DNA from: a virus
Virus record (IMG/VR): IMGVR_UViG_3300034418_006012
Span: 1 to 26,352 of that record
Direction: 5' to 3' (one strand)
DNA: 26,352 bases
In this document: positions 3,961 to 21,638 of the stretch, in pieces
Position numbering within the stretch: the stretch's first letter is position 1
How the letters are laid out: every line of letters begins with the position of its first letter
Position numbers and translations under genes: made by a program
The notes under the pieces: model-generated
Told to the model about the DNA's origin: nothing
Seen by the model: the letters and a program-made list of their open reading frames with translations, nothing else
The model's database searches: none

Positions 3961-4502
3961 AATCTTCCAACTGCAACTTCAATTTCGCCAGGATCTTCTG
4001 TATCCTTACCGGTAATTGCTTTTCCAATTACAGCGCCACCGATATACTGATCAGTAGATTGAGCATACCCTGGCACTTCACTGGTAATCATTAAATCACC
4101 CTGTTTAACAATACCGACGGCTTTGCAGGGACAACGTCCAGTTAGTGCAATGTAAGGATGTGTTTGATTTCTAGTGGCCAATTCACCTACATAAGCATTC
4201 ATTTTATGGCTAGGTTGTGTACTAACAACTCCAAGTACTCTTGTGTCTGCAGGCTGTGAGGATTTAGTAATTTCCTGCATGCCGCCTAAAACAACAACAT
4301 CACCTGGTTCTAAAGGAACATCTGTAGCGTAACGTTCTGCCAAGTCAGCGTATTTTGCATTGGGTTCAAATCCTCCTGCAGTAATACCGTCATGAATTCT
4401 GATACTGTCGTTGGTGATGTCTACCGAAAGTTCACCAGAGGCACCTGTAAATGCGTCATTTTGTGCTTCAGTTCCTCGTCTAAATTGTACTTGTGTTGGC
4501 AT
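3957..4502 (-). CDS. Tail-fibre / receptor-binding-type protein with Mtd-like N-terminal domain
   Basis: A 181-residue protein. Residues 1-47 (VQFRRGTEAQNDAFTGA, then GELSVD and IRIHDG-x-TAGGF) match the pattern of the N-terminal domain of the phage BPP-1 major tropism determinant, a small virion-attachment module common in fibres. Residues about 50-181 (YADLAERY, then PGDVVVLGG, DTRVLGVVS, KQGDLMITS and GGAVIGKA) resemble a C-terminal domain frequent in marine phage structural proteins and related to Peptidase_G2-type self-processing tips; no catalytic assignment can be made. An unusual Cys-Pro-Cys lies at LTGRCPCKAVG. The gene has its own GATAAATA promoter, a GGAG ribosome site about 8 bases before the ATG, and ends convergently with the Nudix gene. 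It is the last gene of the fibre block. Confidence 0.72.
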   Translation of the reverse strand: MPTQVQFRRGTEAQNDAFTGASGELSVDITNDSIRIHDGITAGGFEPNAKYADLAERYATDVPLEPGDVVVLGGMQEITKSSQPADTRVLGVVSTQPSHKMNAYVGELATRNQTHPYIALTGRCPCKAVGIVKQGDLMITSEVPGYAQSTDQYIGGAVIGKAITGKDTEDPGEIEVAVGRF

Positions 4503-4532: not shown

Positions 4533-7229
4533 TTATGTCAGGACTCCGAGATCAACTGTTTCTAAAGAACCTGAAGGATCGTTCATGTCGTAGTTAGGAA
4601 TAAGCGGAATTAAAAAAGCATCGAATGACGAACTTTCCCCTACATATGTTTCGCCTGATCCATAATCACTGTTACCAGCAGATCCTGGGAACGATGTTAA
4701 TGTACTGTTAAAATAGCCACCAGCGCCGCCGCCGCCTGAACTGTAAGGATCACCGTTGCTCCAAAAAACACCATCACCTTCGATAATATAACTACTGGCG
4801 TTAACGTTTCCTGAGGCTATGTAGTTAGTTCCTGACACATTTCCACTTAATGTTAGTCCAGTTAGCGTACCAACTGATGTGATGTTTGTTTGTGCTGCTG
4901 TATCAAGTGTACCTGTTAACGTGGCTCCACTATTACCTATCTGTGCGGCTTCAACAGTTGTACCAGTCAGTGTTCCACTTAGTGTAAGTCCAGTTAATGT
5001 GCCTAAACTAGTAACATTGGTTTGTGCTGCTGTACTCAATGTACCAGTGAGAGTTGCTCCACTATTACCGATTGTAGCAGCTTCTACCGTTGTACCAGTT
5101 AGTGTACCCGATAAAGTTAAACCTGTTAAAGTTCCAAGTGAAGTGATATTTGTTTGGGCTGCGGTTTGTATTGTACCTGTCAGTGTAGCGCCTGAATTAC
5201 CAATTGCAGCAGCATTTATGGTTGTACCGGTAAGTGTCCCACTTAGTGTCAATCCGGTTAATGTACCTAAACTGGTTATATTTGTCTGTGCTGCTGTTTG
5301 TATTGTGCCTGTTAGTGTTGCACCTGTGTTACCAATTGCGGCAGCATTTATAGTTGTTCCTGTTAGCGTACCACTGAGTGTAAGTCCAGTCAGCGTACCT
5401 AAACTTGTAATATTTGTCTGAGCAGCAGTTTGCAATACACCAGTAATGCTTGGCGCTTGAATAGCATCGAAATAACCAGTACTCCAATAGTTGCTGGTTC
5501 CTCCTAAACTCAAACTAGCGTTACCTGCAGGTGTTACACCAACATTGCTTTGCCAACTTGTAGTAGCGTGATTATATATCCAAGTTGCGACACCAACTCC
5601 ACCGACATTACCTGCTAATATACCAGCACCGTCAATACCAGCACTAGTTGTTTGGTTATTGGCAACGATAATGTCTTTGTCATTTATTACAATAGTCCCA
5701 CTATCAACGTAAGTTACGTTACCTGTAACTTGCAGATTGCCCTCAATAACGACTAAACCATTTTGTCCTGCACTTGCTGGATCGATAGTAATTGTGTCGT
5801 GTGTGCTGGTAATACTGTTACTACCAATTGTAATCTCGCCTGTAGTAAGGCTGGAACCTACACTGGTAATGTTTGGTTGCGAAGCTTCTGTTACATACTG
5901 AGCAGTGCCTGCTGTAGTAGCAGAAGTTGCAGTGCCAGCGCTACCAGTGCTGTCGGCGTAAGTGGCATTGGCTACTGTTCCGGTTACATTAGCACCTGTG
6001 ATGCTGGTTAATGCGCTTCCGTCGCCAGTAAAAGCAGTAGCAATGACATTGCCAGCAGTTAAATTGCCAGTTGCTTTTTCAAACGTAAATCGTGTGGTGC
6101 CCGCATCTGTAATAATAAAACTTTGTGCGCCGGTTGCGAGGTCCAACTCCATTGTGTTGGGAGTGCCATTGTAGAAGAACTTAGCGTCATCTGAATTACC
6201 AAACCTTAAATGGTCTACAGAAGAACTGCCATCTGAGAAATCAATAACTCTTGCGTAAATGCTTGTACCAGATAGCGTAGTATAGTAAAGATAATTGGTG
6301 CCGGGGTTGTAATAAAGTCCTGAGTCAATACCCAACGATGCATTGCCTGTCGTAGCGCCACTTAGTGAAAACGGAATGTAATAGTTCGCTGATGTACCGG
6401 TTAGTGTTGTTACAACTGTAGTTGCTGCGGCTGCAGTTCCAGTTACGTCACCTGTCAATGATCCAACTAAACTTGCTCCACTATTACCAATTGTAGCGGC
6501 ATTAATAGTTGTACCTGTTAGTGTTCCTGATAAAGTTAGCCCTGTTAATGTGCCTAGTGAAGTGATGTTAGTTTGAGCAGCGGTGCTTAGTGTGCCAGTT
6601 AGTGTTGCACCTGAATTACCTATTTGTGCTGCCTCAATAGTTGTACCTGTCAGTGTTCCTGATAAAGTTAAACCGGTTAAAGTTCCAAGACTTGTAACAT
6701 TGGTTTGTGCAGCGGTGCTTAATGTACCTGTAAGTGTTGCGCCGGTATTACCAATTGTGGCCGCTTCTACCGTGGTGCCCGTTAGTGTCCCACTTAAAGT
6801 TAATCCGGTTAGTGTTCCTAGTGAAGTAATATTTGTTTGAGCGGCCGTACTTAATGTGCCAGTTAGTGTGGCACCACTGTTACCTATTTGTGCTGCTTCA
6901 ACAGTTGTTCCAGTTAGCGTACCTGACAGAGTTAGCCCGGTTAGCGTACCTAGGCTGGTTACGTTTGGTTGGCTTGCAGTATCTAAAGTACCAGTTAGTG
7001 TGGCGCCTGAATTGCCAATCTGTGCTGCTTCTACTGTTGTACCAGTAAACGTTCCAGTGGCGCTCAGTGTAGTAAATGCACCGGTGCTGGGAGAACTGTT
7101 ACCGATTGGAATATCGTTAATAGCGCCGTCCGTTTTAAGTTTCCAAGCGGCACCGTTCCATATCCAGGTTTTTGTACCAAAGGTATAGGTGTCATTTAGA
7201 CTGGGACTGTTTGGAAAATTTAAAGGCAT
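4533..7229 (-). CDS. Repeat-rich phage tail fibre, 898 residues
   Basis: A long fibre protein. Residues 1-30 carry an N-terminal motif seen in many phage fibres (FPNSPSLNDTYTFG, then WIWNGAAWKL), followed by IGNSSPSTGAFTTLSATG. Next come about five copies of a 44-residue unit (NxTSLGTLTGLTLSGTLTG, then EAAQIGNSGATLTGTL and TAAQ), a less repetitive segment at about 260-410 (including FSDGSSSVDHLRFGN and FFYNGTPNTMELDL), one roughly 140-residue cassette (about 461-600), and about five more units. The tail (about 793-898) begins with a VFWSNGDPYSSGGGG linker also present in the 3,710-residue fibre, then a unique end. The composition (Thr, Gly, Ser, Leu) and regular repeat suggest a trimeric beta-solenoid shaft (inference). 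It has its own AATAAATA promoter. Host recognition is the likely job. Confidence 0.85.
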   Translation of the reverse strand: MPLNFPNSPSLNDTYTFGTKTWIWNGAAWKLKTDGAINDIPIGNSSPSTGAFTTLSATGTFTGTTVEAAQIGNSGATLTGTLDTASQPNVTSLGTLTGLTLSGTLTGTTVEAAQIGNSGATLTGTLSTAAQTNITSLGTLTGLTLSGTLTGTTVEAATIGNTGATLTGTLSTAAQTNVTSLGTLTGLTLSGTLTGTTIEAAQIGNSGATLTGTLSTAAQTNITSLGTLTGLTLSGTLTGTTINAATIGNSGASLVGSLTGDVTGTAAAATTVVTTLTGTSANYYIPFSLSGATTGNASLGIDSGLYYNPGTNYLYYTTLSGTSIYARVIDFSDGSSSVDHLRFGNSDDAKFFYNGTPNTMELDLATGAQSFIITDAGTTRFTFEKATGNLTAGNVIATAFTGDGSALTSITGANVTGTVANATYADSTGSAGTATSATTAGTAQYVTEASQPNITSVGSSLTTGEITIGSNSITSTHDTITIDPASAGQNGLVVIEGNLQVTGNVTYVDSGTIVINDKDIIVANNQTTSAGIDGAGILAGNVGGVGVATWIYNHATTSWQSNVGVTPAGNASLSLGGTSNYWSTGYFDAIQAPSITGVLQTAAQTNITSLGTLTGLTLSGTLTGTTINAAAIGNTGATLTGTIQTAAQTNITSLGTLTGLTLSGTLTGTTINAAAIGNSGATLTGTIQTAAQTNITSLGTLTGLTLSGTLTGTTVEAATIGNSGATLTGTLSTAAQTNVTSLGTLTGLTLSGTLTGTTVEAAQIGNSGATLTGTLDTAAQTNITSVGTLTGLTLSGNVSGTNYIASGNVNASSYIIEGDGVFWSNGDPYSSGGGGAGGYFNSTLTSFPGSAGNSDYGSGETYVGESSSFDAFLIPLIPNYDMNDPSGSLETVDLGVLT
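4850..5428 (-). repeat. 44-residue (132-bp) tandem units, C-terminal array of the 898-residue fibre
   Basis: About five consecutive 132-bp units encode TSLGTLTGLTLSG-type repeats. Four have Leu at the diagnostic TS(L/V)G position; the last, next to the unique tail, has Val. Amino acids are nearly constant while codons differ widely between units. Boundaries are approximate. Confidence 0.85.
5429..5845 (-). repeat. Interspersed cassette, copy in the 898-residue fibre
   Basis: About 140 codons running from a GEITIGSNSITSTH strand through GLVVIEGNLQVTGNVTY, IIVANNQTTSAGIDGAGILA, ATWIYNHATTSWQSN and NYWSTGYF to APSITGVLQT. The same cassette occurs four times in the 3,710-residue fibre. This copy is of the SAGQNG / YVDSGTI subtype. 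Boundaries are approximate. Confidence 0.82.
6461..7060 (-). repeat. 44-residue (132-bp) tandem units, N-terminal array of the 898-residue fibre
   Basis: Four full units plus a degenerate first half-unit (FTGTTVEAAQIGNSGATLTG). All full units carry Leu in TSLG. Boundaries are approximate. Confidence 0.82.
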
Positions 7230-7256: not shown

Positions 7257-10145
7257 TTATGAGGTACTTAACTTATTGGGTAGAGCCGAGGTCGGTACCG
7301 AAGTTACATCTCTTGCTACACCTTTAGTGAATCTAATATCGTCTAAATATCCATTCATTTCTTGAGTCGATGTCCCTGCTCTTGCACCCCAAAATCCTAC
7401 GTCAAAACTGTTGCCCAACGCTGAAGTACTTGCTCCCACATTAGCCGTTGATCCTGATGTTCCTTGGTAAAGTGTAAGCGTTCCTGCTGCGGTTCTTACC
7501 AAAGCACAATAAGTCCATGTTTGCGCTGATATAGCAGTATCACTGTCTATAATATTACTATAGCCAGTGTTATTATCACCAAGGCTACTCATAACTGCGT
7601 AAGCACCTGTAGTATCTGTCACTGCCAAGTAACCTGACTTCCATTGTATTCTAAGTGTTCTGCCTGTTCCAGAATTACAATACATCCACCATTCTAAAGT
7701 AAATGCTCCTGTGCCTGTAGTAATTAAAGTTGGTATGCTGGAAGTGCTGTGCCATAGACGCATATAATTAGATCCAGACGTGCCAAAATTAATTGAAGTA
7801 TTTCCAAAATTTTTAACACTGTCACTGAGTGCCACGGTGGCGTTAAGATTTATATTGTTGACACCAGAACCGTCGTAAATGTCAGCATCACTAAAAGGAA
7901 CAGCAAGATAAGCAGACCCGCTGGCTAATGCACTTGATGGTGGCGTAAAGTTAGACGTATAAACTGCACTTTTTGTATATCTAAAATCGCTGAGCCATCC
8001 TTTAAATATTTCGTTAGGATTATCTGCATACCTTGAGGCTAATCTGAAAGTAGGAGTACCAGTAAATGATGGTGTGTTTGTATTAGTTGCTACACTCTGA
8101 CCATTTAAGTATAATGTATTTGTTGTGCCGTTTCTAACCAAAGCAACGTGTTGCCATACGCCTATTTTTGCAAGCCCAGTGGATGAAGTCGTAGTACCGT
8201 TAAATCCGTTAACCCAAAAAGCAATAGCCCCAGTTGAGCTGCTTGCACCTACTATTGCAATACTATAGGATTGATTGGTATTAGTTCCTAATGTAAAAAT
8301 GCCGTTCGTGTTATCAAACGTTCCATCTGGTTTAAACCAACACTCCATTGTAAAATCACCAGTTGGTTTATGAGTTAAACTGGCTGATGAAGTTACATAA
8401 TCTCCACTATCGTCAAAATACATTGCGCCGGCGTGGCTGGCAGGATCGTAGGCATTGTAAACAGGGCCAGCAGTCATTGGCGTTGAGGAGTTTGAATAAG
8501 GCCAACCTGTTACAGATGTAGCAAAAGCATTATCACTAATATCGCCCATCCAAGGACCGGCATAAGCCAAGAACTCGGTATTTGCAATTTTTTCTAAACT
8601 GTGTGTAGGTGGATCAAACGCGGAAGTATACACAGCTGTGCCGTTAACCAATCTTAGTTGGCAAATATACCCTTTAGGTGTATAACTGTAACTGGTGCTA
8701 TACCCAACATAAAAAGTTCCGGAAAAATCAATTGTTGAACTGGATGTAGTTATTCCTACTTGTGCGCCATCACGATAGGCTTTTATGTTGTTTGATCCAC
8801 TACCACTTTTTACGATTGCAAAATGGTGCCAGGCATTTCTTGTGCCGCCACTAAATGTAAGGTTTACTGTGCCGTCATACAAGTGCAATATGCCACCGCT
8901 GTCTCCATAGATTGCTGGTTTAGAGCCAAAGGAGCCGCCCATGATTCCATAATTGCCCCAAGTTGTATGATTGTTGTACCACCAAAACTCAAGCGTAAAA
9001 TCGCCTGTACAGGTACAATTAGCATCAAGTGTCCAACTGTGATAAGAACTGCCATCAAAATACACACTGGGAGGTGGTTCATAATATGGGCTGGCTGCGC
9101 CCGAATAAGGGTTGCCCGACACAGTCATAGTAATGCTATTACTGGAATGATCAGTGACTACGCTATTGTCAGCAGTTTGTGCCGTAGCTATGCCTTGTAT
9201 AAGTGCATTAGTATCAGCAAAATACGCATCACCCGTATCAGCAACACTAATGGTCCACGTAATTGTTTTTGTAGCAGTTCTTGTAGTTGTATTAGCAGTA
9301 GCAGTCAACAGTGTGTACTCAGTTCCAACATCAGTTGGTGTGCCACTAATAGTGTCGCCTGAAAGACTTAAGCCATTTGGTAAACTATTTGCTGTGTAAA
9401 CCACTCCATAACCTGCACCACTAGTGGCTACCAATGTTAAATTACTCATGGCTGTATTCGCAGTTAAACTCTGTGCGTCGCTGGCAGGCAGACTCCAAGT
9501 AACTACATCAGTGTTTACCGTTAATGTAAATGAACGTAAAGCTGTCTGATTTTCTTCATCTTGTGCCTGAATGGTAAAACTGTAAGTTGTTGTATTACTG
9601 TCTACAGGTGCAGTTCCGGTTAAATTTCCAGTGTTAGCATCTAACGTAGCACCCGACGGCAAACTACCACTATAAAGACTATAAGTTATCGAATCACCAC
9701 CTTCTTCTGCCACAAAAGTATTGTTTATACTGGTAGTTTCATAGTATGGGCCAAGTTCGCTGTCTGCTGCCGGACTACTCCAAGTTGGCAGTCCGTCATA
9801 AACCAAACCTGGCACCAATGCTGCCGTGCCTCCATTTGGATTAGTTGCATATACAGTATAAGTCCCTGATGTTTTAGCAGGACTGGTAAAAGTTAGTGTA
9901 GTTGGTGTAATAGTTACAGAACCTATTTGTGCATTATCAACTCTTACTGTTGCACCAGATTTAAAACCACTGCCTTGAAGTACTATTTCCTCGCCGCCTG
10001 CAGGATCGAGTTGTTTAACACTACCATCAACAGTATAACCAGTAATTTTTGGTATTAGATATTCTGTTTGGTTAAACTGTGATGCTAAAGAAACAATTCC
10101 CGTTTGATCGGCTGCTCGTTTTCCTTTAAGGCCTGAATTTCTCAT
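7257..10145 (-). CDS. Virion adhesin: IPT/TIG, two Ig-like and three LamG-type (concanavalin-like) domains
   Basis: A 962-residue protein. Domains in order, with approximate positions: a short attachment segment (1-30); an IPT/TIG fold (32-115) with PAGGEEIVLQGSGF, TLTFTSPAKTSGTYTVYATN and GG; two putative-Ig (He_PIG / cadherin-like) folds (about 125-300) marked by LPSGATLDANTGNLTGTAP and LPNGLSLSGDTISGTP; then three LamG/concanavalin-like lectin folds (about 360-520, 575-740, 785-950), each with GDFTLEFW / GDFTMECW / GAFTLEWW and a matching WxHxAxV or W-T-Y-C-A-L-V strand. Such tandems bind surface glycans, so host or particle adhesion is the likely role. An upstream in-frame ATG at 10196 exists, but I chose 10145: it follows the previous stop by one base and has GAGGAA about 10 bases upstream. 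Confidence 0.85.
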   Translation of the reverse strand: MRNSGLKGKRAADQTGIVSLASQFNQTEYLIPKITGYTVDGSVKQLDPAGGEEIVLQGSGFKSGATVRVDNAQIGSVTITPTTLTFTSPAKTSGTYTVYATNPNGGTAALVPGLVYDGLPTWSSPAADSELGPYYETTSINNTFVAEEGGDSITYSLYSGSLPSGATLDANTGNLTGTAPVDSNTTTYSFTIQAQDEENQTALRSFTLTVNTDVVTWSLPASDAQSLTANTAMSNLTLVATSGAGYGVVYTANSLPNGLSLSGDTISGTPTDVGTEYTLLTATANTTTRTATKTITWTISVADTGDAYFADTNALIQGIATAQTADNSVVTDHSSNSITMTVSGNPYSGAASPYYEPPPSVYFDGSSYHSWTLDANCTCTGDFTLEFWWYNNHTTWGNYGIMGGSFGSKPAIYGDSGGILHLYDGTVNLTFSGGTRNAWHHFAIVKSGSGSNNIKAYRDGAQVGITTSSSTIDFSGTFYVGYSTSYSYTPKGYICQLRLVNGTAVYTSAFDPPTHSLEKIANTEFLAYAGPWMGDISDNAFATSVTGWPYSNSSTPMTAGPVYNAYDPASHAGAMYFDDSGDYVTSSASLTHKPTGDFTMECWFKPDGTFDNTNGIFTLGTNTNQSYSIAIVGASSSTGAIAFWVNGFNGTTTSSTGLAKIGVWQHVALVRNGTTNTLYLNGQSVATNTNTPSFTGTPTFRLASRYADNPNEIFKGWLSDFRYTKSAVYTSNFTPPSSALASGSAYLAVPFSDADIYDGSGVNNINLNATVALSDSVKNFGNTSINFGTSGSNYMRLWHSTSSIPTLITTGTGAFTLEWWMYCNSGTGRTLRIQWKSGYLAVTDTTGAYAVMSSLGDNNTGYSNIIDSDTAISAQTWTYCALVRTAAGTLTLYQGTSGSTANVGASTSALGNSFDVGFWGARAGTSTQEMNGYLDDIRFTKGVARDVTSVPTSALPNKLSTS

Positions 10146-10146
10146 G

Positions 10147-10506
10147 TTAAGACATTTCCTCGAATGAACATACTGCCTGTAAATCACCATCGGCACTGGC
10201 GGTGCATCTTAGTGCATCACCTTCAAGTAAATAAATTGTGCCAGTTTTGTCAATTGCATTAAATGCACTGTCTGCTGCTACCGCTACTGTTTTCACTATA
10301 TGATATGCAGTACTACTGCGATATAAATCCACAGTGATATCAGCTGAACTTGTGCCATCTATGTTTGAGATAATCAAACTGTTAATTTTGTAAATCTTTC
10401 CACTGTCAGCAGCGTTTTCAACTATAGCGGTGGCGCTTGTTGTACAACTCTGTACTGTAGTGTTGCCATTTACTGTTGTTAGACCTAAGATATTAGGTGT
10501 AGCCAT
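10147..10506 (-). CDS. Small conserved structural protein, function unknown
   Basis: A 119-residue protein beginning MATPNILGLTTVNGNTT. It reads as a small all-beta virion component: KIYKINSLIISNIDGTSSADITVDLYR is a strand-loop-strand pattern, followed by AIDKTGTIYLLEGDALRCTA. From memory, marine T4-like phages carry similar proteins of about this length among their fibre genes, but I cannot name the role. The start overlaps the stop of the 3,710-residue fibre gene (TAATG) and the stop is one base before the adhesin start, so the three genes form one translationally linked late unit. There is no signal peptide or membrane segment. Confidence 0.7.
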   Translation of the reverse strand: MATPNILGLTTVNGNTTVQSCTTSATAIVENAADSGKIYKINSLIISNIDGTSSADITVDLYRSSTAYHIVKTVAVAADSAFNAIDKTGTIYLLEGDALRCTASADGDLQAVCSFEEMS

Positions 10507-13500
10507 TATAAACCTCCAAATAATATTGAGAATGCAAACGCTGTACTTGTAACTGATCCAGTTTCGTTACCTGCGTTGGCAAAAGCGTTTGCATCAATGT
10601 TACCTCCAGTACTAGCAACTGTTACAACTCCACCTGCAGGACTAACCACAATACCACTGGGGTTTGGATTAGCTTCTGTTGGTTGCGGCATCAGTGCAAT
10701 AGCACCAGTGCTGGCGTCTGTACTTATAGTTGCTCCGCCAAGATTAATTGTATTTCCTGACAGGAACAAATCACGCCATTGGTAACTTGCACTACCTAAG
10801 TCGTAAGTTACATTTGCAGCAGGAATAATGCTTTGAGCAACTGCACTTAAATCAACATTGCCTCCACTGCCGCTGCCGTTGCTAAACGAAAGTTCTGCCT
10901 GCATTTCAGCCCACTGACTGCTGTCACCATCATTGAAGTAGATAAATTGTATACCACTGTCACTGTCAATCCATATGTCACCCTGACTTGGGCTACTTGG
11001 TGCGGTATTGCTTACTGTTGTAGTGCCGCCGCCACCACCTGAACTATAAGGATCGCCATTGCTCCAGAAAACTCCATCTCCAGCAATAATGTAACTGTTA
11101 GCAGTTACGTTAGCAGTTACTCCTAGCGTTGTTCCAATTGTAGCACTGTTATTAATGGTTATTGCATTTACAGTACTGTTACCACTTGTATCTAAAGTGG
11201 CGCCGATTAGTGCCGCGCTGGCATTACCAATAGTAGCAGCATTTACAGTTGTACCAGTTAATGTTCCACTTAGTGTTAAACCAGTAAGTGTACCTACTGA
11301 CGTAATGTTAGTTTGGGCAGCAGTGTCAAGAGTTCCTGTTAGTGTAGCACCGCTATTTCCTATCTGTGCTGCTTCAACAGTTGTACCTGTCAATGTACCA
11401 CTTAAAGTGAGTCCAGTTAGCGTACCCACTGATGTAATGTTGGTTTGAGCAGCAGTGTCAAGAGTTCCTGTTAAAGTTGCTCCACTATTGCCTATCTGTG
11501 CTGCTTCTACGGTAGTTCCAGTTAGTGTTCCTGACAGGGTTAGCGAAGTTAATGTGCCAACACTGGTAATATTTGCCTGTGTGGCATTTGTTACGTACTC
11601 AGCAGTTCCTGCCGTTGTTGCAGTTCCTGCACTGCCAGTGCTGTCTGCATAAGTTGCATTGGCTACCGTTCCAGTTACATTAGCGCCTGTTAAACTAGTT
11701 AATTGACTACCGTCGCCTATTAGGCTTGCACCAGAATTGCCAATAGTAGCAGCTTCTAGTGTTGTGCCGGTTAATGTGCCGCTTAGTGTCAATCCAGTTA
11801 GTGTACCTACTGATGTAATGTTGGTTTGAGCAGCAGTTTGTAAAGTACCTGTTAACGAAGCGCCAGTATTACCAATCTGTGCGGCTTCTACAGTTGTTCC
11901 AGTTAATGTACCACTTAGTGTAAGTCCTGTTAGTGTACCGACACTAGTAATATTAGTTTGTGCGGCTGTGTCTAATGTACCAGTTAGTGTAGCACCACTA
12001 TTTCCTATTTGTGCAGCATTTACTGTGGTTCCAGTAAATGTGTCTGACAGGAATAAGTTGCTTGTATGTGCGCCGTCTGCTGCAACTACAAAAACGTTTT
12101 GAATGCCACTTACACTGGTATTAACGTTACCACTACCCTCAACAACTACATTACTTGTTCCGTTAGTGATTGAAGATCCTGCTTCAACAGTAATACCTTC
12201 AATAAATCTACCGTTACCAAACAAGTAACTTCCGCTGGTAATGTTACCTGTAGTTCCTAACTGAACTGCCGTTACATCGCCTGTTAATGTTATTCCACTA
12301 CCAGCAATATTGCCTGTAACGCCTAATGTGCTTCCAATTGTAGTGGTACTGTTTACAGTTAGTTCATTTACCGTAGCGTTGCCGCTTGTGTCTAATGTTG
12401 CACCAATTAGTGCTGCACTAGCGTTACCGATAGTAGCAGCATTAACAGTAGTACCAGTTAGTGTACCACTTAGAGTCAATCCAGTTAGTGTACCAACACT
12501 GGTAATATTAGTTTGGGCTGCTGTACTTAATGTACCTGTTAGTGTTGCTCCTGTGTTACCAATTTGAGCAGCTTCTACCGTCGTACCAGTTAGTGTACCA
12601 CTTAATGTTAGTCCAGTTAATGTGCCTACTGATGTAATATTGGTTTGTGCAGCAGTTTGCAATACACCAGTAATACTTGGTGCTTGGATAGCATTGAAAT
12701 ATCCAGTATCCCAGTAATTACTAGTTCCGCCTAAACTTAAACTTGCATTACCCGCAGGTGTTATACCTACATTTGAACGCCAACTGGTAGTAGCATGATT
12801 ATATACCCAAGTAGCAATACCCTCGCCGCCTACATTACCTGCTAGTATACCAGCGCCGTCAATACCAGCACTCGTTGTTTGGTTATTAGCAACAACTATA
12901 TCTAAGTCATTGGTGCTGACAACATTACTGTCGATGTAAGTTACATTACCAGTAACTTGCAGGTTACCTTCAATTACTACCAATCCGCCGCTGCCGGCAG
13001 TACTTGGATCGATTGTAATTACACTATGTGTGCTGGTAATACTATTGCTACCTATTGTAATTTCGCCAATAGTTACAGAATCGGCTAAGGAGTTAATGTT
13101 AGGCTGTGCTGCGGTGCTAAGTGTACCTGTTAGAGTAGCATCGGTATTACCTATCTGTGCTGCTTCAACAGTTGTACCGGTTAGTGTGCCACTCAAAGTT
13201 AAGCCAGTTAATGTACCAACACTAGTAATATTCGTTTGTGCGGCAGTTTGTAATGTGCCTGTTAACTGTGATCCACTATTACCGATAGTTGCTGCTTCAA
13301 TAGCAGTACCAGTTAATGTACCACTTAAAGTTAATCCAGTTAGTGTTCCAACTGATGTAATATTAGTTTGAGCGGCAGTGCTTAATGTACCTGTTAATGT
13401 AGCACCACTATTTCCTATTTGTGCAGCCTCTACTGTGGTACCTGTCAATGTACCGCTTAATGTTAATCCAGTTAGTGTTCCAACTGAGGTAATATTGGTT

Positions 13501-16500
13501 TGACTTGCAGTCTGTAACGTGCCAGTTAATGTTGCTCCTGTGTTACCAATGCTAGCGGCTTCAATTGCAGTACCAGTTAATGTTCCTGACAAAGTTAGCC
13601 CGGTTAGTGTGCCAACGCTTGTAATATTAGTTTGACTTGCAGTTTGTAATGTACCTGTAATTGTTGTACCTACGTTGCCAACACTGGCTGCGTTGATATT
13701 TGTGCCGTCTAGGTTACCGCTTAGTGTTAATCCTGTTAGTGTACCTACTGATGTAATATTAGTTTGTGCAGCAGTATCTAGTGTACCAGTTAATGTTGCA
13801 CCACTATTACCAATCTGTGCTGCTTCTACCGTAGTGCCTGTTAAAGTGCCACTTAGTGTCAGTCCAGTTAGTGTACCTACCGATGTGATGTTGGTTTGGG
13901 CAGCAGTGCTTAACGTACCTGTTAAAGTTGCACCTGAGTTACCTATCTGTGCTGCTTCAACAGTTGTACCTGTCAATGTACCACTTAAAGTGAGTCCGGT
14001 TAGTGTACCAACACTAGTAATATTAGTTTGTGCCGATGTTTGTAATGTGCCAGTTAGTTGCGATCCCGAATTACCAATGGTGGCTGCTGTAATGGCTGTG
14101 CCAGTTAGCGTACCGCTCAAAATTAAACTAGTTAGCGTACCAACTTCTGTAATGTTTGTTTGGCTAGCAGTATCTAATGTACCAGTTAATGTTGCTCCAC
14201 TATTACCAATCTGAGATGCGTTAAGAGTTGTTCCTGTTAATCCACCACTTAATGTTAAGCCAGTAAGAGTTCCAACTGCGGTAATGTTACTCTGAGTCGC
14301 ATTTGTTACATATTCAGCAGTGCCTGCAGTATTAGCAAAATTAACACTTAAACCACTTAGGTTACTTAATTGGCTACCATCTCCCAAGAAGTAAGTAGCA
14401 GTTACATTTCCACCAGCATGGATGTTACCTCCAACGCCAATACCACTGTTACCTTGTAGTACTAAAGCACCTGTGCTTACACTGGTACTGCGTGTTCCAT
14501 CAACGTTGGCGCCACCTGGATCACTACTACCAATCAGTACCAAGTTACCAGTTTTAATATTTCCATAAACAGCAGTACTGTGATTGATGACGTTAGCATC
14601 GTCTCCTGCACCACTACCATACCATTCTAAATTCTGTTCGTCATTACTCCAAATTAACGCAGCATTGTCGTTTTGCGTTTTGTAGTAGTGCATTCTGAAG
14701 CCAATGTCTCTACCATCATCTTCAGTTAATGGAGTTAAGTTGGCATCAGTGTGCATTTCAATCAAGTTGTCTGTGACAGCAAGATTATTTGCACCGATAA
14801 TAGTAGTATTGCCTTCAACTGTTAAGTTGCCTGCGATTGTTGTATCCTGGCTAATAAGAACTGTACCGCCAATATGTACATCTTTGGCAATACCAACGCC
14901 ACCTGCGACTACCAATGCTCCGTTGGTTGTAGCGGTTGCCTGTGTTGTGTCTGTAATTGTTGTAACACCAGTTACACCTAGTGTCGAACCAACTGTAGCA
15001 CTGTTGTTTACAGACAATGCATTAACTGTGGCATTACCTGTGGCACTTAGTGTGCTTACAATAGCAGTATTGCCGCCGCCGGAACCCAATGCGCCATTTA
15101 AATTTGTGCCATTAATTGTAGTAATTGTTGCACTGGCGCCAGTAAATGCAGCACCAATGTTACCAATTATGGCTGCTTGTACTGTAGTTCCGTTTAATGT
15201 ACCACTTAAGGTTAAGCCAGTTAGTGTTCCAACTTCTGTAATATTTGTTTGGCTAGCAGTTTGTAATGTACCAGTTAACTGAGATCCGCTATTACCAATA
15301 GTTGCAGATTCTACGCTAGTACCAGTTAGTGTGCCACTTAGTGTTAGCCCAGTTAGTGTTCCTAGTGAGGTTATGTTTGTCTGCGCCGCAGTACTCAGCG
15401 TACCTGTCAAGGTAGCACCAGTGTTACCAATAGTAGCAGCACTTACAGTTGTACCTGTTAATGCACCACTTAGTGTCAATCCGGTTAGCGTACCAACCGA
15501 TGTTATATTTGTTTGAGAAGCGGTGTCTAATGTACCGGTTAATGTAGCACCACTATTACCAATTTGAGCTGCTTCTACTGTAGTACCAGTTAGTGTTCCT
15601 GATAATGTTAAGCCAGTTAGTGTACCAACAGATGTGATATTTGTCTGGGCCGCGGTGCTCAATGTTCCTGTTAGTGTAGCACCTGAGTTACCAATAGTTG
15701 CTGCTTCTACTGCGGTACCTGTTAATGTGCCACTTAGTGTTAGTCCAGTTAAAGTGCCTACGCTAGTAATATTTGTTTGTGCAGCAGTTTGTAAAGTACC
15801 TGTTAAAGTACTACCAGTAATGGCTGCACCACTGTTACCAATTATGGCTGCATTAATCGTCGTACCTGTTAGTGTACCGCTTAATGTCAATCCAGTTAGT
15901 GTACCTACTGATGTGATGTTGGTTTGTGCAGCGGTATTCAAAGTACCAGTTAGTGTGGCGCCCGAATTACCTATTTGAGCTGCTTCTACAGTGGTTCCAG
16001 TTAGTGTACCACTTAGTGTAAGTCCGGTTAAAGTACCAACTGATGTAATGTTTGTCTGCGCCGCAGTGCTCAATGTACCTGTTAGTGTAGCACCACTGTT
16101 ACCAATAGTGGCTGCGCTGACTGTTGTTCCTGTTAATCCACCGCTTAATGTTAAGCCAGTTAGTGTACCAACTGCTGTAATGTTACTCTGTGTAGCATTT
16201 GTTACATATTCAGCTGTTCCTGCGGTATTGGCATAATTTACGCTTAGGTCTGATAGTCCATCTAATTGGCTTCCATTACCAAAGAAGTAATTGGCAGTGA
16301 CATTACCACCAACTTGCAACACATCAAAGTATCCTGTTGACCAATAATTATTGGTTCCACCAAAACTTAACGCTGCATTACCTAGTGGAGTTATACCAAC
16401 GTTGCTTTGCCAACTAGTAGTTGCATGATTATATGTCCAGGTTGCTATTCCTTCACCACCCACATTACCTGCTAATATACCAGCGCCATCAATATCTGCA

Positions 16501-19500
16501 CTAGTTGATCTATTATTTGCAACAACAATGTCTAAGTCATTGGTGCTGACAATATTGCTGTCAATGTAAGTTACGTTACCTGTAACCTGCAAGTTGCCTT
16601 CAATTACTACCAATCCACCACTTCCAGCAGTGCTTGGATCAATAGTAATTACACTGTGTGTACTTGTGATACTGTTGCTGCCAATAGTTATTTCACCTAT
16701 TGTTACCGCATCCGCAAGTTCGTTGATATTTGGCTGAGCAGCGGTGCTTACCGTGCCTGTTAGTGTTGCACCTGAGTTACCAATTGTAGCAGCATTTATA
16801 GTTGTACCAGTAAGTGTATCACTTAGTGTTAAACCAGTTAGTGTTCCAACACTAGTGATATTAGTCTGTGCAGCAGTGCTTAACGTACCTGTTAGCGTAG
16901 CACCTGAGTTACCAATAGTTGCTGCTTCCACTGCGGTACCGGTTAGTGTACCACTTAAAGTTAGTCCTGTTAGTGTTCCAACTGATGTAATATTAGTTTG
17001 AGCAGCAGTATCTAAAGTGCCTGTCAGGGTAGCGCCCGAATTACCTATTTGTGCTGCTTCTACTGTGGTACCTGTTAATGTACCACTTAGTGTAAGTCCA
17101 GTTAGTGTTCCTAGTGAGGTTACATTTGGCTGGCTTACAGTGGATAACGTTCCTGTTAGTGTAGTATTTGTATTACCAATGGTAGCAGCATTAATAGCAG
17201 TACCGGTTAGTGTACCACTTAAAGTTAGTCCAGTTAGTGTGCCTACTGATGTGATATTAGTTTGAGCAGCAGTATCTAAAGTTCCTGTTAACGTAGCACC
17301 ACTGTTACCAATTTGAGCAGCTTCTAAAGTAGTACCGGTTAACGTATCACTAAGTGTTAATCCTATTAGTGTACCGACTGCTGTAATGTTGCTCTGTGTA
17401 GCATTTGTTACGTACTCAGCAGTTCCTGCAGTGTTAGCATAATTAACACTTAGTTCTGTTAATCCACCTAATTGACTACCATTACCAAAAAAGTAACTGG
17501 CAGATATATTTCCAGTTGAATCAACATTACCAGCAATTATATTTCCGGTAACATCTAATGTTGTACCAATTGTAGCACTATTGTTGATTGTAATATCATT
17601 TACAGTGGCATTTGCAGTGCTTTCAACTGTTGCGCCAAATATAGTACTACCTGTGTTACCGATTGTTGCGGCATTAACAGTTGTTCCTGTTAACGCACCA
17701 CTTAGTGTCAAACCGGTTAGTGTACCAACACTGGTAATATTTGCTTGTGCTGCTTCTGTTACATACCCGGCAGTACCTGCTGTGTTTGCTGTATTACTGT
17801 TACCTGCTTCAAGAGAATATGTGGCGTTAGCAACTGTTCCTGTAACATTTGCGCCAGTTAAACTGGTTAAAGCACTACCATCACCAATTAATGTGGCACC
17901 AGTATTACCAATTGTAGCAGCATTAATGTCAGTGCCAGTTAGTGTACCACTTAGTGTAAGTCCGGTTAGTGTTCCTACTGACGTAATGTTAGTCTGGTTT
18001 GCTGTTTGAAGTACACCTGTGACGCTTGGTGCTTCAATTGCATTAAAGTAACCTGTACTCCAGTAGTTACTGGTGCCACCGAGGCTTAAACTGGCGTTAC
18101 CAACCGGAGTTACTCCGACGTTACTTTGCCAACTTGTGGTAGCATGATTGTATATCCAGGTTGCAACTCCTGCTCCACCCACATTACCTGCTAGTATACC
18201 AGCACCATCAATACCAGCACTCGTTGTTTGGTTATTAGCAACAATAATGTCTTTGTCGTTGATAATTATAGTTCCACTATCAACATAAGTTACGTTACCT
18301 GTGACTTGTAAGTTTCCTTCAATTACAACTAATCCATTTTGACCTGCACTTGCGGGATCAATTGTAATTACGCTATGTGTGCTTACAATACTATTGCTGC
18401 CAATTGTGATCTCACCAATAGTTACTTCGTCAGCAAGTTGATTAATATTTGTCTGTGCTGGAGTATTGATTGTTCCAGTTAATGTAGCGCCTGAATTACC
18501 AATCTGCGCTGCTTGTACAGTTGTTCCGTTTAACGTGCCTGATAATGTTAATCCAGTCAGTGTACCAACTTGCGTTATATTTGTTTGAGCAGCGGTATCT
18601 AACGTACCAGTTAAGATTGCGCCTGTGTTACCAATTTGCGCTGCTTCTACTGTGGTGCCAGTCAATGTTCCTGACAGGGTGGCGCCAGTCAATACACCAA
18701 CACTGGTAATATTTGCCTGTGCTGCTTCGCTGACGTATTGTGCAACACCTGCTGTATTGGCAAAACTTACACTAACTCCTCCTAGTCCATCTAATAATGC
18801 ACCATTACCTAAAAAATAACTAGCAGACACATTGCCAGTAACACCTAAATCAGTACCAATTGTAGCACTGTTGTTTATTGTTAACGCATTAATAGTTGCA
18901 TTAGAAGTGGTGTTTAAAGTAGCGCCCGTGAATGCAGCGCCGGTGTTACCAATGGTTGCTGCTTGTACAGTTGGGGCATTCAGTGTGCCGCTTAAATTTA
19001 ATCCTGTTAGAGTGCCAACTGAGGTAATATTTGGTTGTGCTGCTGTTTGAATAGTTCCAGTTAGTGCAGCACCTGCATTACCAATAATGGCTGCACGAAT
19101 AGTAGTGCCGTCTAATATACCACTTAATGTCAGTCCAGTTAGTATACCAACACTGGTTATATTTGGTTGACTAGCAGTCTGTATAGTGCCAGTCAATGTA
19201 CTACCAGTAATTGCTGCACCACTATTTCCAATTGTGGCAGCGTTTATGGTTGTACCAGTTAGTGTGCCACTTAGTGTTAGTCCGGTTAGTGTACCAACAC
19301 TGGTAATGTTAGTTTGACTGGCTGTCTGAATTGTACCAGTTAGGGTTGCACCTGTGTTACCAATTTGAGCAGCATTAACAGTAGTGCCTGTCAGAGTTCC
19401 GCTCAATGTCAGTCCAGTTAGTGTACCAACACTGGTTATATTTGTCTGTTGTGGTGTTTGTAGTACACCAGTAATACTTGGTGCTTCGATGGCGTTAAAG

Positions 19501-21638
19501 TAGCCTGTACTCCAATAATTATTTGTACCACCAAAACTTAGTGCAGCATTACCTTGAGGTGTTATCCCTACATTTGAGCGCCAACTGGTAGTAGCATGAT
19601 TATATACCCAAGTTGCGATACCTTGACCACCAACATTACCTGCTAATATACCTGCGCCGTCTATGTCTGCACTAGTTGTTCTATTATTAGCGACAATAAT
19701 GTCTAAATCATTTGTACTTACAACATTACTATCAATGTAAGTTACATTACCAGTTACTCGTAAATTACCTTCAATTACAACTAGGCCGCCACTGCCTTCT
19801 GTGCTAGGATCAATTGTGATAGTGTCATGTGTGCTGGTAATACTGTTACTACCAATTGTAATCTCACCAATTGTAACTGCGTTTGCTAATTCATTTACGT
19901 TGGGTTGACTGGCAGTTTCTAATGTGCCAACTAAATTTGTGGCTTCGACATTACCTGCAATAATATTTCCAGTAACGCCTAATGTTGTTCCCACTGTTGC
20001 ACTAGTGTTAACAGTTAATCCATTTACTGTGGCATTTGCACTTGTATCTAGCGTTTCGCCGACTAGTTGTGTAGCAGCATTACCAACAGTAGCAGCATTA
20101 ACAACCGTTCCTGTAATAGCACCACTTAGAGTCAAACCAGTTAGTGTACCAACACTAGTTATATTTGTTTGTGCTGCAGTGTCTAGTGTACCTGTTAATG
20201 TAGCACCACTATTACCAATTTGTGCTGCTTCTACTGTAGTGCCAGTTAGTGTACCACTTAATGTCAGACTGGTCAATGTGCCAACACTGGTAATGTTTGC
20301 CTGTGTAGCATTGGTTACGAACTCGGCAGTACCCGCAGTGTTTGCAAAGTTTACACTTAATTCTGTAAGTCCGTCTAATTGGCTACCATTACCAAAGAAA
20401 TAACTGGCTGTAACATTGCCTGCGGTATCTACATTACCAGGTGTAATGTTTCCAACAACTTCTAAACCTAAGGAAGAAAAAGTTGCTATCGATTCACCGT
20501 TAACTGAAATTAAAATATTTCCGTCACTAGCAGGAATGTCAACATTAGAAGTGCCATTTTGAATTCTATATGTTGTTGCATCTTCAGATCCTTGAATAAC
20601 AAATGCACCACCTTCAGCAGTTGTAATAATCACTGCGGTATTGTTGGCACTAATTGATGCACCATCTAAGTTAATAGTACTTCCACTTAAGAATAAATCT
20701 TTAAATCTAAAATCTGAACTTCCCAAATTGTAAGTAACGTTGGCGCTTGGGATAATGTTGCCAATAAATTCTGTTGCACTAATACTGTTTGCAGTTATAC
20801 CGTCGACACTGTCAAGGTTACCACTATACGTTGGCAAATAACTGGCTACGTTTGCGTTTGAATAAGAAGCAGGCAGTCCTTCGAGTTGACTACCATTACC
20901 AATAAAATAAGCAGCAGTAACATTAGCAGTAGTAATTACATTACCAGCCAAACTATCTAAATTACCTGTGTATGTAGGCAAGTAATTAGCAACATTGGCA
21001 TTGCCATATGTAATTTCACCTAAACCAGTTAGTTGACTACCATTACCAATAAAGTAGGCTGCACTAACATTACCAGTAGCAATAACATCTGTGCTAACGA
21101 TGACATTACCAGCACCTATATTGCCTGTATAAGTTGGCAAGTAGCTAGCAACGTTTGCATTGCTGTAATTACCACTTACTACTACACCATTGACTGTGAG
21201 AGTTCCATTATCTACAGAAATATTTGTGCCGCGCAAAGTTACATTATTGCTGAGATAAAGTTCTGCCCATTCTTTAGAAATACTACCGAGTGTATAAGTT
21301 GCTGTAGTCTGAGGTAGTACATCAGACTTAATGCTAGTCAAATCTGCTTGAATGTTACTAAAAACACTTTGACCGTTAGGATAAAAATATCCCGCCCCAA
21401 TAATATTGCCAATAGTGCTTAAATTTCCAAAACCATTGATATTACCAACTCGTAAATTGCCAGTAGTATAAAAATAATTTGCAGTAATTGTATTACCGGT
21501 TAAATTTGTCGTACTGTTGCTACCAATAATTGTGTATAACTCTGTAAAGTTACTGTTTGTTTTGGTAAATGCGGTATAGAGTGAATCACCAGAGTTACTA
21601 TCTGGACCATCACCTAAGTCAATGATTTCTTGCGCCAT
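10506..21638 (-). CDS. Giant repeat-built tail fibre, 3,710 residues
   Basis: This is an uninterrupted 11.1-kb reading frame. Residues 1-40 are a fibre attachment motif (IDLGDGPDSNSGDSLYTAF, then TNSNFTELY). Residues 40-440 carry a second repeat family (ANVASYLPTYTGN three times; YFIGNGSQL several times) and a strand module with ATYTLGSISKEWAELYLSNN. Residues about 443-3,515 contain about 39 copies of a 44-residue unit (TSVGTLTGLTLSGTLTG with EAAQIGNSGATLTGTL), interrupted by four copies of a roughly 140-residue cassette, several YFFGNGSQL linkers and one unique module (about 2,170-2,420). The C-terminus has the VFWSNGDPYSSGGGG linker, SSPSQGDIWIDSDSG and a last strand module with YDLGSASYQWRDLFLSG. 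A trimeric beta-solenoid shaft with host-binding function is inferred. It has a late promoter upstream and a weak ribosome site (GGATAAAG). Its length far exceeds the T4 long tail fibre subunit gp37 (about 1,000 residues). Confidence 0.87.
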   Translation of the reverse strand: MAQEIIDLGDGPDSNSGDSLYTAFTKTNSNFTELYTIIGSNSTTNLTGNTITANYFYTTGNLRVGNINGFGNLSTIGNIIGAGYFYPNGQSVFSNIQADLTSIKSDVLPQTTATYTLGSISKEWAELYLSNNVTLRGTNISVDNGTLTVNGVVVSGNYSNANVASYLPTYTGNIGAGNVIVSTDVIATGNVSAAYFIGNGSQLTGLGEITYGNANVANYLPTYTGNLDSLAGNVITTANVTAAYFIGNGSQLEGLPASYSNANVASYLPTYSGNLDSVDGITANSISATEFIGNIIPSANVTYNLGSSDFRFKDLFLSGSTINLDGASISANNTAVIITTAEGGAFVIQGSEDATTYRIQNGTSNVDIPASDGNILISVNGESIATFSSLGLEVVGNITPGNVDTAGNVTASYFFGNGSQLDGLTELSVNFANTAGTAEFVTNATQANITSVGTLTSLTLSGTLTGTTVEAAQIGNSGATLTGTLDTAAQTNITSVGTLTGLTLSGAITGTVVNAATVGNAATQLVGETLDTSANATVNGLTVNTSATVGTTLGVTGNIIAGNVEATNLVGTLETASQPNVNELANAVTIGEITIGSNSITSTHDTITIDPSTEGSGGLVVIEGNLRVTGNVTYIDSNVVSTNDLDIIVANNRTTSADIDGAGILAGNVGGQGIATWVYNHATTSWRSNVGITPQGNAALSFGGTNNYWSTGYFNAIEAPSITGVLQTPQQTNITSVGTLTGLTLSGTLTGTTVNAAQIGNTGATLTGTIQTASQTNITSVGTLTGLTLSGTLTGTTINAATIGNSGAAITGSTLTGTIQTASQPNITSVGILTGLTLSGILDGTTIRAAIIGNAGAALTGTIQTAAQPNITSVGTLTGLNLSGTLNAPTVQAATIGNTGAAFTGATLNTTSNATINALTINNSATIGTDLGVTGNVSASYFLGNGALLDGLGGVSVSFANTAGVAQYVSEAAQANITSVGVLTGATLSGTLTGTTVEAAQIGNTGAILTGTLDTAAQTNITQVGTLTGLTLSGTLNGTTVQAAQIGNSGATLTGTINTPAQTNINQLADEVTIGEITIGSNSIVSTHSVITIDPASAGQNGLVVIEGNLQVTGNVTYVDSGTIIINDKDIIVANNQTTSAGIDGAGILAGNVGGAGVATWIYNHATTSWQSNVGVTPVGNASLSLGGTSNYWSTGYFNAIEAPSVTGVLQTANQTNITSVGTLTGLTLSGTLTGTDINAATIGNTGATLIGDGSALTSLTGANVTGTVANATYSLEAGNSNTANTAGTAGYVTEAAQANITSVGTLTGLTLSGALTGTTVNAATIGNTGSTIFGATVESTANATVNDITINNSATIGTTLDVTGNIIAGNVDSTGNISASYFFGNGSQLGGLTELSVNYANTAGTAEYVTNATQSNITAVGTLIGLTLSDTLTGTTLEAAQIGNSGATLTGTLDTAAQTNITSVGTLTGLTLSGTLTGTAINAATIGNTNTTLTGTLSTVSQPNVTSLGTLTGLTLSGTLTGTTVEAAQIGNSGATLTGTLDTAAQTNITSVGTLTGLTLSGTLTGTAVEAATIGNSGATLTGTLSTAAQTNITSVGTLTGLTLSDTLTGTTINAATIGNSGATLTGTVSTAAQPNINELADAVTIGEITIGSNSITSTHSVITIDPSTAGSGGLVVIEGNLQVTGNVTYIDSNIVSTNDLDIVVANNRSTSADIDGAGILAGNVGGEGIATWTYNHATTSWQSNVGITPLGNAALSFGGTNNYWSTGYFDVLQVGGNVTANYFFGNGSQLDGLSDLSVNYANTAGTAEYVTNATQSNITAVGTLTGLTLSGGLTGTTVSAATIGNSGATLTGTLSTAAQTNITSVGTLTGLTLSGTLTGTTVEAAQIGNSGATLTGTLNTAAQTNITSVGTLTGLTLSGTLTGTTINAAIIGNSGAAITGSTLTGTLQTAAQTNITSVGTLTGLTLSGTLTGTAVEAATIGNSGATLTGTLSTAAQTNITSVGTLTGLTLSGTLTGTTVEAAQIGNSGATLTGTLDTASQTNITSVGTLTGLTLSGALTGTTVSAATIGNTGATLTGTLSTAAQTNITSLGTLTGLTLSGTLTGTSVESATIGNSGSQLTGTLQTASQTNITEVGTLTGLTLSGTLNGTTVQAAIIGNIGAAFTGASATITTINGTNLNGALGSGGGNTAIVSTLSATGNATVNALSVNNSATVGSTLGVTGVTTITDTTQATATTNGALVVAGGVGIAKDVHIGGTVLISQDTTIAGNLTVEGNTTIIGANNLAVTDNLIEMHTDANLTPLTEDDGRDIGFRMHYYKTQNDNAALIWSNDEQNLEWYGSGAGDDANVINHSTAVYGNIKTGNLVLIGSSDPGGANVDGTRSTSVSTGALVLQGNSGIGVGGNIHAGGNVTATYFLGDGSQLSNLSGLSVNFANTAGTAEYVTNATQSNITAVGTLTGLTLSGGLTGTTLNASQIGNSGATLTGTLDTASQTNITEVGTLTSLILSGTLTGTAITAATIGNSGSQLTGTLQTSAQTNITSVGTLTGLTLSGTLTGTTVEAAQIGNSGATLTGTLSTAAQTNITSVGTLTGLTLSGTLTGTTVEAAQIGNSGATLTGTLDTAAQTNITSVGTLTGLTLSGNLDGTNINAASVGNVGTTITGTLQTASQTNITSVGTLTGLTLSGTLTGTAIEAASIGNTGATLTGTLQTASQTNITSVGTLTGLTLSGTLTGTTVEAAQIGNSGATLTGTLSTAAQTNITSVGTLTGLTLSGTLTGTAIEAATIGNSGSQLTGTLQTAAQTNITSVGTLTGLTLSGTLTGTTVEAAQIGNTDATLTGTLSTAAQPNINSLADSVTIGEITIGSNSITSTHSVITIDPSTAGSGGLVVIEGNLQVTGNVTYIDSNVVSTNDLDIVVANNQTTSAGIDGAGILAGNVGGEGIATWVYNHATTSWRSNVGITPAGNASLSLGGTSNYWDTGYFNAIQAPSITGVLQTAAQTNITSVGTLTGLTLSGTLTGTTVEAAQIGNTGATLTGTLSTAAQTNITSVGTLTGLTLSGTLTGTTVNAATIGNASAALIGATLDTSGNATVNELTVNSTTTIGSTLGVTGNIAGSGITLTGDVTAVQLGTTGNITSGSYLFGNGRFIEGITVEAGSSITNGTSNVVVEGSGNVNTSVSGIQNVFVVAADGAHTSNLFLSDTFTGTTVNAAQIGNSGATLTGTLDTAAQTNITSVGTLTGLTLSGTLTGTTVEAAQIGNTGASLTGTLQTAAQTNITSVGTLTGLTLSGTLTGTTLEAATIGNSGASLIGDGSQLTSLTGANVTGTVANATYADSTGSAGTATTAGTAEYVTNATQANITSVGTLTSLTLSGTLTGTTVEAAQIGNSGATLTGTLDTAAQTNITSVGTLTGLTLSGTLTGTTVEAAQIGNSGATLTGTLDTAAQTNITSVGTLTGLTLSGTLTGTTVNAATIGNASAALIGATLDTSGNSTVNAITINNSATIGTTLGVTANVTANSYIIAGDGVFWSNGDPYSSGGGGGTTTVSNTAPSSPSQGDIWIDSDSGIQFIYFNDGDSSQWAEMQAELSFSNGSGSGGNVDLSAVAQSIIPAANVTYDLGSASYQWRDLFLSGNTINLGGATISTDASTGAIALMPQPTEANPNPSGIVVSPAGGVVTVASTGGNIDANAFANAGNETGSVTSTAFAFSILFGGL
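12656..13077 (-). repeat. Interspersed cassette, copy 4 in the 3,710-residue fibre
   Basis: Encodes GEITIGSNSITSTHS to APSITGVLQT, with the SAGQNG position replaced by TAGSGG and YIDSNVVSTNDLD. It is the TAGSGG subtype, but its end (PAGNASLSLGG) is like the SAGQNG subtype, so it looks mosaic. Boundaries are approximate. Confidence 0.8.
14380..15120 (-). other. Unique non-repeat module inside the giant fibre
   Basis: Residues about 2,170-2,420 break the 44-residue array once. The module contains TTNGALVVAGGVGIAKDVHIGG, then TIAGNLTVEGNTTIIG, LIEMHTDANL, GRDIGFRMHYYK, ALIWSNDEQNLEWYG and LVLIGSSDPGGANVDG. The GALVVAGGVGI pattern occurs in marine phage fibres as I know them. It is richer in charged and aromatic residues than the shaft, so it may be a globular knob, joint or binding site (inference). 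Confidence 0.6.
16321..16706 (-). repeat. Interspersed cassette, copy 3 in the 3,710-residue fibre
   Basis: Starts with GEITIGSNSITSTHS and runs to NYWSTGYF, then leaves the cassette pattern (VLQVGGNVTANYFFGNGSQL) instead of ending APSITGVLQT. It therefore lacks the usual last strand and switches directly into a linker. Boundaries are approximate. Confidence 0.8.
18004..18425 (-). repeat. Interspersed cassette, copy 2 in the 3,710-residue fibre
   Basis: GEITIGSNSIVSTHS to APSVTGVLQT. It is of the SAGQNG / YVDSGTI subtype, and so closer to the copy in the 898-residue fibre than to the other three copies in its own gene. Boundaries are approximate. Confidence 0.8.
19457..19878 (-). repeat. Interspersed cassette, copy 1 in the 3,710-residue fibre
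   Basis: GEITIGSNSITSTHD to APSITGVLQT, of the STEGSGG / YIDSNVVSTNDLD subtype, with ALSFGGTNNYWSTGYF near the end. Boundaries are approximate. Confidence 0.8.

Follow-up and report, generated by a model that had tools for sequence, protein, structure and literature searches.

The minus-strand gene at 10506..21638 raises the question of how about 50 copies of a protein repeat can stay alike in their amino acids while their codons are scrambled. The window, meaning the whole stretch of DNA analysed here, is the 26,352-base virus record IMGVR_UViG_3300034418_006012 (IMG/VR), from a T4-like myovirus. The original prediction proposed that either old units have been held by strong protein-level selection or codon diversification itself is favoured, and took as its example two adjacent units at 11322..11453 and 11454..11585. 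When this pair was recomputed, the reported counts were reproduced exactly: 15 of 44 codons are identical and 29 differ, with 3 amino-acid changes. The two units share 93 of 132 bases, the described TCA/AGT swap of serine codons is present at two positions, and NG86 gave a pS of 0.80 (dS undefined) and a dN of 0.097. The pair, for which no strand had been named, is coded on the minus strand in phase with gene 10506..21638; read on the plus strand in that phase, the two units contain 4 and 5 stops. The same array, or part of it, was present in five other IMG/VR contigs at 99.86-100% identity over 6.0-11.1 kb with no gap opening, and the array is therefore not a chimaera of one assembly.

A unit scan located 40 units of 44 amino acids in the giant fibre-like protein of 3,710 amino acids encoded by this gene, and 10 copies of the same repeat in a second, similar protein of 898 amino acids (4533..7229, minus strand). 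The total of 50 agrees with the number of copies that had been estimated. The unit is close to TNITSVGTLTGLTLSGTLTGTTVEAAQIGNSGATLTGTLSTAAQ, and units cover 47% of the big protein and 49% of the small one. Those of the big gene span 11181..20300 (minus strand) as tandem runs interrupted by spacers, and those of the small gene span 4758..7100 (minus strand), the last one being weak. A less repetitive block of about 132 amino acids is interspersed in both genes, with four copies in the big gene (19491..19886, 18039..18434, 16323..16715 and 12690..13085) and one in the small gene (5463..5855), all on the minus strand. The four big-gene copies share 78-90% protein identity at a dS of 1.3-1.9, and the copy at 18039..18434 is 92% identical in protein to the small-gene copy at a dS of 1.43. 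Over all ten block pairs of this phage, protein identity is 78-92%, dS 1.1-1.9 and dN/dS 0.04-0.14.

Judged from its genes, the window is a structural locus of a T4-like myovirus, with a predicted gp23-type capsid protein (Gp23 major capsid in Pfam, E 1.7e-97), a predicted prohead serine protease (Peptidase_S77, E 4.1e-26) and a predicted gp15-type tail sheath stabiliser (T4-gp15_tss in Pfam, E 3.7e-30) encoded nearby. In a phage collection, the best-ranked matches of the capsid protein include Vibrio phage 2.275.O (68.8%) and Pseudomonas phage PA5oct (66.5%), with records of 285-349 kb. The PHROG category "tail fiber protein" was matched over about one unit by both repeat proteins, weakly by the big one (E 0.00049) and at E 9.5e-12 by the small one. 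Pfam gave no family at E<=0.01 for the big protein; for the small protein the sole match, RlmL_1st, was below its own cut-off and was discarded as probably spurious. The first ~47 residues of the small protein weakly match Synechococcus phage genes, several of them annotated as tail fiber protein. The small protein had weak matches in 45 of 50,697 phage records, and the 20 listed lay in the N-terminus or in stretches mostly between unit runs. The first 446 residues of the big protein, an 88-residue repeat consensus and the region 18800-19931 had no match among the same 50,697 records, in a search whose low-complexity filter may mask the repeat. A PDB sequence search returned no match for the fibre-like protein. 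Two AlphaFold2 models were of low confidence (mean pLDDT 50.5 and 47.6); one contained only beta structure, with roughly two long strands in each unit, and the second had no secondary structure assigned. Because of the virion-gene neighbours, the weak PHROG tail fiber matches and the cyanophage-like N-terminus of the small protein, the big protein is probably a tail-fibre shaft.

A sister phage was available for comparison as three contigs with identical 9,753-nt arrays of the same unit. Several other genes of the locus were recorded alongside the arrays. The gene at 7257-10196 encodes a 979-aa protein with Laminin_G_3, He_PIG and TIG domains; neither this gene nor the ORF 10147..10506 had a tblastn match within the compared part of the sister phage, which carries a glycine-rich-domain ORF and a short ORF between the genes corresponding to the flanks of 7257-10196. 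Beside the fibre genes, 3957-4502 encodes a 181-aa protein with the N-terminal domain of the major tropism determinant (Mtd_N, E 1.6e-9). A NUDIX-domain gene (3526-3960) and a PfkB-family kinase gene (22283-23101) both lie inside the virion gene cluster and are kept in the sister phage, with dN/dS of 0.02 and 0.05, respectively.

Array statistics were calculated from 49 of the 50 units, one unit scoring below 110 having been dropped, which gave 1,176 pairs. Mean identity was 0.754 for amino acids, 0.667 for nucleotides and 0.428 for codons at same-residue positions, so that the codon-diverged appearance of the pair does extend across the array, as had been claimed. If codons were drawn independently according to the usage of the units themselves, a codon identity of 0.387 would be expected. 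Pooled over units, NG86 yielded a dS of 1.53, a dN of 0.239 and a ratio of 0.156, and 152 of the 1,176 pairs had a pS >= 0.75, where the silent correction reaches or passes its limit. The protein is thus conserved while the silent sites are near saturation, the pattern expected of polyubiquitin-like birth-and-death evolution.

The units are close to independence, and saturation is incomplete, since codon identity exceeds the random value by a small but genuine margin (z 8.9, gene-wide permutation). When the expectation was conditioned on the next base, expected and observed values were 0.424 and 0.443 within the big gene, 0.420 and 0.441 in the sister array, and 0.418 and 0.436 between the big window array and the sister. 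Between the big and small genes, codon identity was 0.392, higher than plain usage would give (0.382) and lower than expected from the next base (0.410). Preferences for particular codons at individual columns are correlated between the two phages (rho 0.59, n 113), and part of the small excess therefore need not reflect ancestry within the array. The serine boxes differ between columns, one being mixed (18 TCN, 14 AGY) and another biased (6 TCN, 33 AGY; Fisher p 0.0004), which indicates that box identity is partly retained. Distance along the gene had no clear effect on codon identity (rho -0.073, one-sided p 0.055), adjacent units were at 0.430 against 0.431 ± 0.013 (34 pairs), and the dependence of codon identity on amino-acid identity was weakly positive (rho 0.118, p 0.04). 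With nearly saturated silent sites, a dN/dS of 0.156 and no clear distance effect, purifying selection on apparently old units is supported, their age being a reading of the sequence divergence.

It could be proposed instead that codon diversification is itself selected, cutting homology between units and hence slippage and recombination. Homologous repeats are unstable in phages, and there is little usable homology in the big gene, where 62 of 780 unit pairs share an exact run of at least 20 nt and 7 share at least 30 nt; the lack of gaps in the five near-identical contigs and the fall of big-versus-small-gene codon identity under its next-base expectation also agree with such selection. However, silent similarity was not below that of independent draws, nor lowest between neighbours. 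Within the big gene mean codon identity exceeds the random value, and the mean longest shared run was 12.64 nt against 11.85 ± 0.145 nt in 200 within-column shuffles. Adjacent units of the window had a codon identity of 0.437 against a permutation null of 0.446 ± 0.015 (27 pairs, z -0.63); the small gene had a z of +0.75 and the sister array one of +3.1 (19 pairs), its neighbours being more alike than chance. The lower value against a with-replacement baseline (0.433 observed over 24 pairs, against 0.462 ± 0.016) should not be taken for avoidance, as that baseline is inflated by drawing from the same sample, and the permutation null is the fair one. Codon usage in the big array was no more even than that of the phage's other genes: homozygosity was about the same for Thr and Ala and higher for Gly, Leu, Ser, Val and Ile, and in the small gene that of Ile was lower than in other genes (n 20). 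When 20% of matching codons were redrawn in simulated data, adjacent identity fell by ~0.043, about three null standard deviations; a possible weak avoidance, far below this level, would be missed. Selection for codon diversification is accordingly regarded as highly improbable. The signature that had been predicted for it was found in one half only, as silent sites were near saturation while long shared tracts departed from expectation in the opposite direction, and of the two alternatives first proposed it is that of old selected units which is supported.

A related reading is that second-order selection for genome stability, acting only on rare long tracts, keeps homology between units low. 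Arrays that regained long identical tracts would lose units by recombination, and the phages carrying them would be purged; over-dispersion would not be expected, because selection would touch only those rare tracts. This reading was judged very unlikely.

The identical codons that remain are not scattered evenly. They cluster at lag 1 in three arrays (z 4.9, 3.8 and 2.7), and clustering is weak or absent at longer lags (window lag 3, z -1.1; lag 8, z -1.2); given this fading, part of the lag-1 clustering may be codon context. The longest exact tract in the window is 56 nt, in the codons at 13941..13997, and matches 11358..11414 in a distant unit (both on the minus strand); the 200 shuffles gave a mean of 31.8 nt and a maximum of 54 nt. 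The longest exact run of the sister array, at offset 132, measures 104 nt; at least three of its unit pairs are 91-92% identical in nucleotides, two of them adjacent, and one adjacent pair consists of 12 codons with 8 differing followed by 32 identical ones. In sister contig L098, the adjacent units at residues 2570/2614 and 2897/2941 of a 3,251-aa ORF are 92% identical in nucleotides, and the 104-nt run lies in the first of these pairs, which suggests recent duplication or conversion. More generally, the sharp identical tracts suggest occasional short exchanges, conversions or duplications in otherwise old sequence, and they are few, as the 7 of 780 window pairs with at least 30 nt indicate.

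Comparison with the sister phage was consistent with a history of exchange at the locus. In flanking genes that align, dS between the two phages is mostly 0.38-0.75, with one small gene at 0.13. In contrast, an 866-bp block at 20119..20984 (minus strand) is 98.3% identical to L098, while the stretches flanking it in the sister are only 89-90% identical, and dS falls to 0.02 over the 228 codons that precede the first unit. As one end of the block lies inside the second unit, it probably represents a recent exchange into the array. For the other 39 units of the big gene, with the exchanged one left out, the mean best match to a sister partner was 0.606 against 0.607 ± 0.008 after shuffling, and with the exchanged unit counted the best partner reached 0.70 in 4 of 40 units against 1.75 expected. 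The exchanged unit aside, the window units taken together lack orthologues in the sister array. Most simply, this would be read as the replacement of the fibre region by a divergent allele in one of the two lineages; the lost orthology itself would be explained equally well by gain and loss of units and by replacement of the whole allele.

Codon identity was alike within arrays and between phages (0.445, 0.441 and 0.437, against expectations of 0.393, 0.395 and 0.389). The difference of within minus between phages, over 69 units with 5 dropped, was 0.0067 for codons (p 0.052) and 0.0025 for amino acids (p 0.27), and concerted evolution of the 44-aa units, in the sense of within-genome likeness, amounts to at most a trace. 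The ~132-aa blocks, at 78-92% protein identity within this phage, reach 62-77% with the sister, and their silent sites are saturated in both comparisons. A simple recent duplication tree had been named as one outcome that would overturn the first observation, and none was seen: in the third-position tree the units of both phages are intermixed (30 label changes against 33.2 shuffled, p 0.116), while the full-nucleotide tree keeps some grouping by array (27 against 33.1, p 0.01).

The exchanged block ending inside a unit, which shows that the locus recombines, and the loss of unit orthologues beyond it would also be compatible with units recently gathered from many divergent phages, so that their differences were imported and not built up in place. 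Two points make this account very doubtful. The two 36-nt unit sequences tried in IMG/VR matched 2 and 6 contigs, all of them from this phage, and among the related loci compared, only this phage and its sister had more than 10 matched units in one ORF.

Related loci contributed 431 long ORFs, 292 of them non-redundant, and 93 of these 292 (the window's phage and its sister included) had internal protein repeats with diverged DNA. A diagonal scan found no merged segment at >=90% nucleotide identity in the 93 repeat ORFs; because it averages over merged segments it overlooks short recent copies, as the 91-92% unit pairs of L098 show. Four of its 93 rows are antisense, and the sister is represented in it by the shorter L097, as the scan has no row for L098, L099, L100 or L162. 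In codon-identity excess over expectation, the big window protein ranked 10th lowest and the small one 6th lowest of the 93, at 0.053 and 0.032 against a median of 0.153. In named phage records, most repeat ORFs have retained codon identity to a greater extent than the window has, as in L180 (0.63 against 0.38 expected). The cyanophage S-SCSM2R locus L185 carries GTQG-type repeats at 12847-15780 with a codon identity of 0.398-0.410 against ~0.47 expected; relative to permutation within the repeats, z is only -1.2. The related contig L148 contains a (Gly-Thr)28 run at 14133-14300 with its codons in homogeneous blocks, and its negative z (-6.7) was rejected as a case of over-dispersion because such blocks are what slippage would make.

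Metagenome assembly may hide arrays of identical units, which limits claims of their absence, and survivorship was weighed on these grounds. According to this explanation, recent identical-unit arrays are lost by deletion or collapsed in short-read assembly, and only scrambled ones remain visible. The window and its IMG/VR relatives are metagenome assemblies, and their longest exact within-array repeats, 56 nt in the window and 104 nt in the sister, are under the usual short-read length. Survivorship would account for a missing near-identical tail, but not for the near-random bulk of silent sites. Moreover, in seven regions of named phage records, which may also be short-read assemblies, 8 of 36 long ORFs had internal repeats and none had a segment at >=90% nucleotide identity, and the homogeneous (Gly-Thr)28 run of L148 did assemble. 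Survivorship was therefore considered unlikely as the explanation of the array.

We consider it quite probable that the array consists of old structural repeats whose codon scrambling is a by-product of time and protein constraint, without selection on codons, and with occasional patching and allele swaps. This account starts from direct observations, namely near-saturation, low dN/dS, the lack of over-dispersion, the tracts and the lost unit orthology with the sister. Purifying selection on the amino acids of each unit, acting for long enough, would leave silent sites nearly random between units, and selection on codons would not be needed for the divergence. The constraint would come from a repeating fold, for which both AlphaFold2 models are of low confidence. 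Short exchanges or duplications would now and then patch or add units, producing sharp identical tracts that later erode, and related phages would swap array alleles.

The value of the locus lies in about 50 units in which protein and DNA identity are almost completely uncoupled, together with a sister phage for comparison. The nulls applied here (independent draws, within-column shuffle and next-base context) separate plain saturation from selected diversification, and they favour plain saturation. Fibre-like proteins of related contigs likewise commonly have protein repeats with diverged DNA, and most retain more residual codon identity. A literature search found no paper on codon-scrambled repeats in phages, and the closest published parallel, by analogy, is polyubiquitin. 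In the portion of text available from PMC10457151, which cites Nei et al. 2000, the synonymous differences of polyubiquitin are disputed as the result of purifying selection with duplication and loss or of slow exchange. Within the scope of that text, polyubiquitin resembles the phage array in its head-to-tail units with near-constant protein and many synonymous differences. The same text describes within-species units of Plasmodium polyubiquitin as generally far more alike than units of different species, whereas codon identity in the phage array is about the same within arrays and between phages. The phage unit differs further in being a structural repeat within a long protein and in varying more than polyubiquitin does, with a mean identity of 75%.

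Persi, Wolf and Koonin (2016; PMC5120217), whose main text lacks words beginning with virus or phage, described periodic protein repeats, in the portion available, as having a dN/dS mostly below 1; that portion also reports that evolutionary distance increases with physical distance in human proteins, and that selection is strongly relaxed among the copies within one protein. As far as that portion extends, the phage array is like these repeats in its dN/dS below 1 and unlike them in having no clear distance effect, copies that are alike in protein and silent sites near saturation. From this comparison, long phage proteins made of repeats would seem able to persist with no homogenisation of their DNA, unlike the relaxed-then-fixed pattern that the same portion of the work by Persi and colleagues presents.
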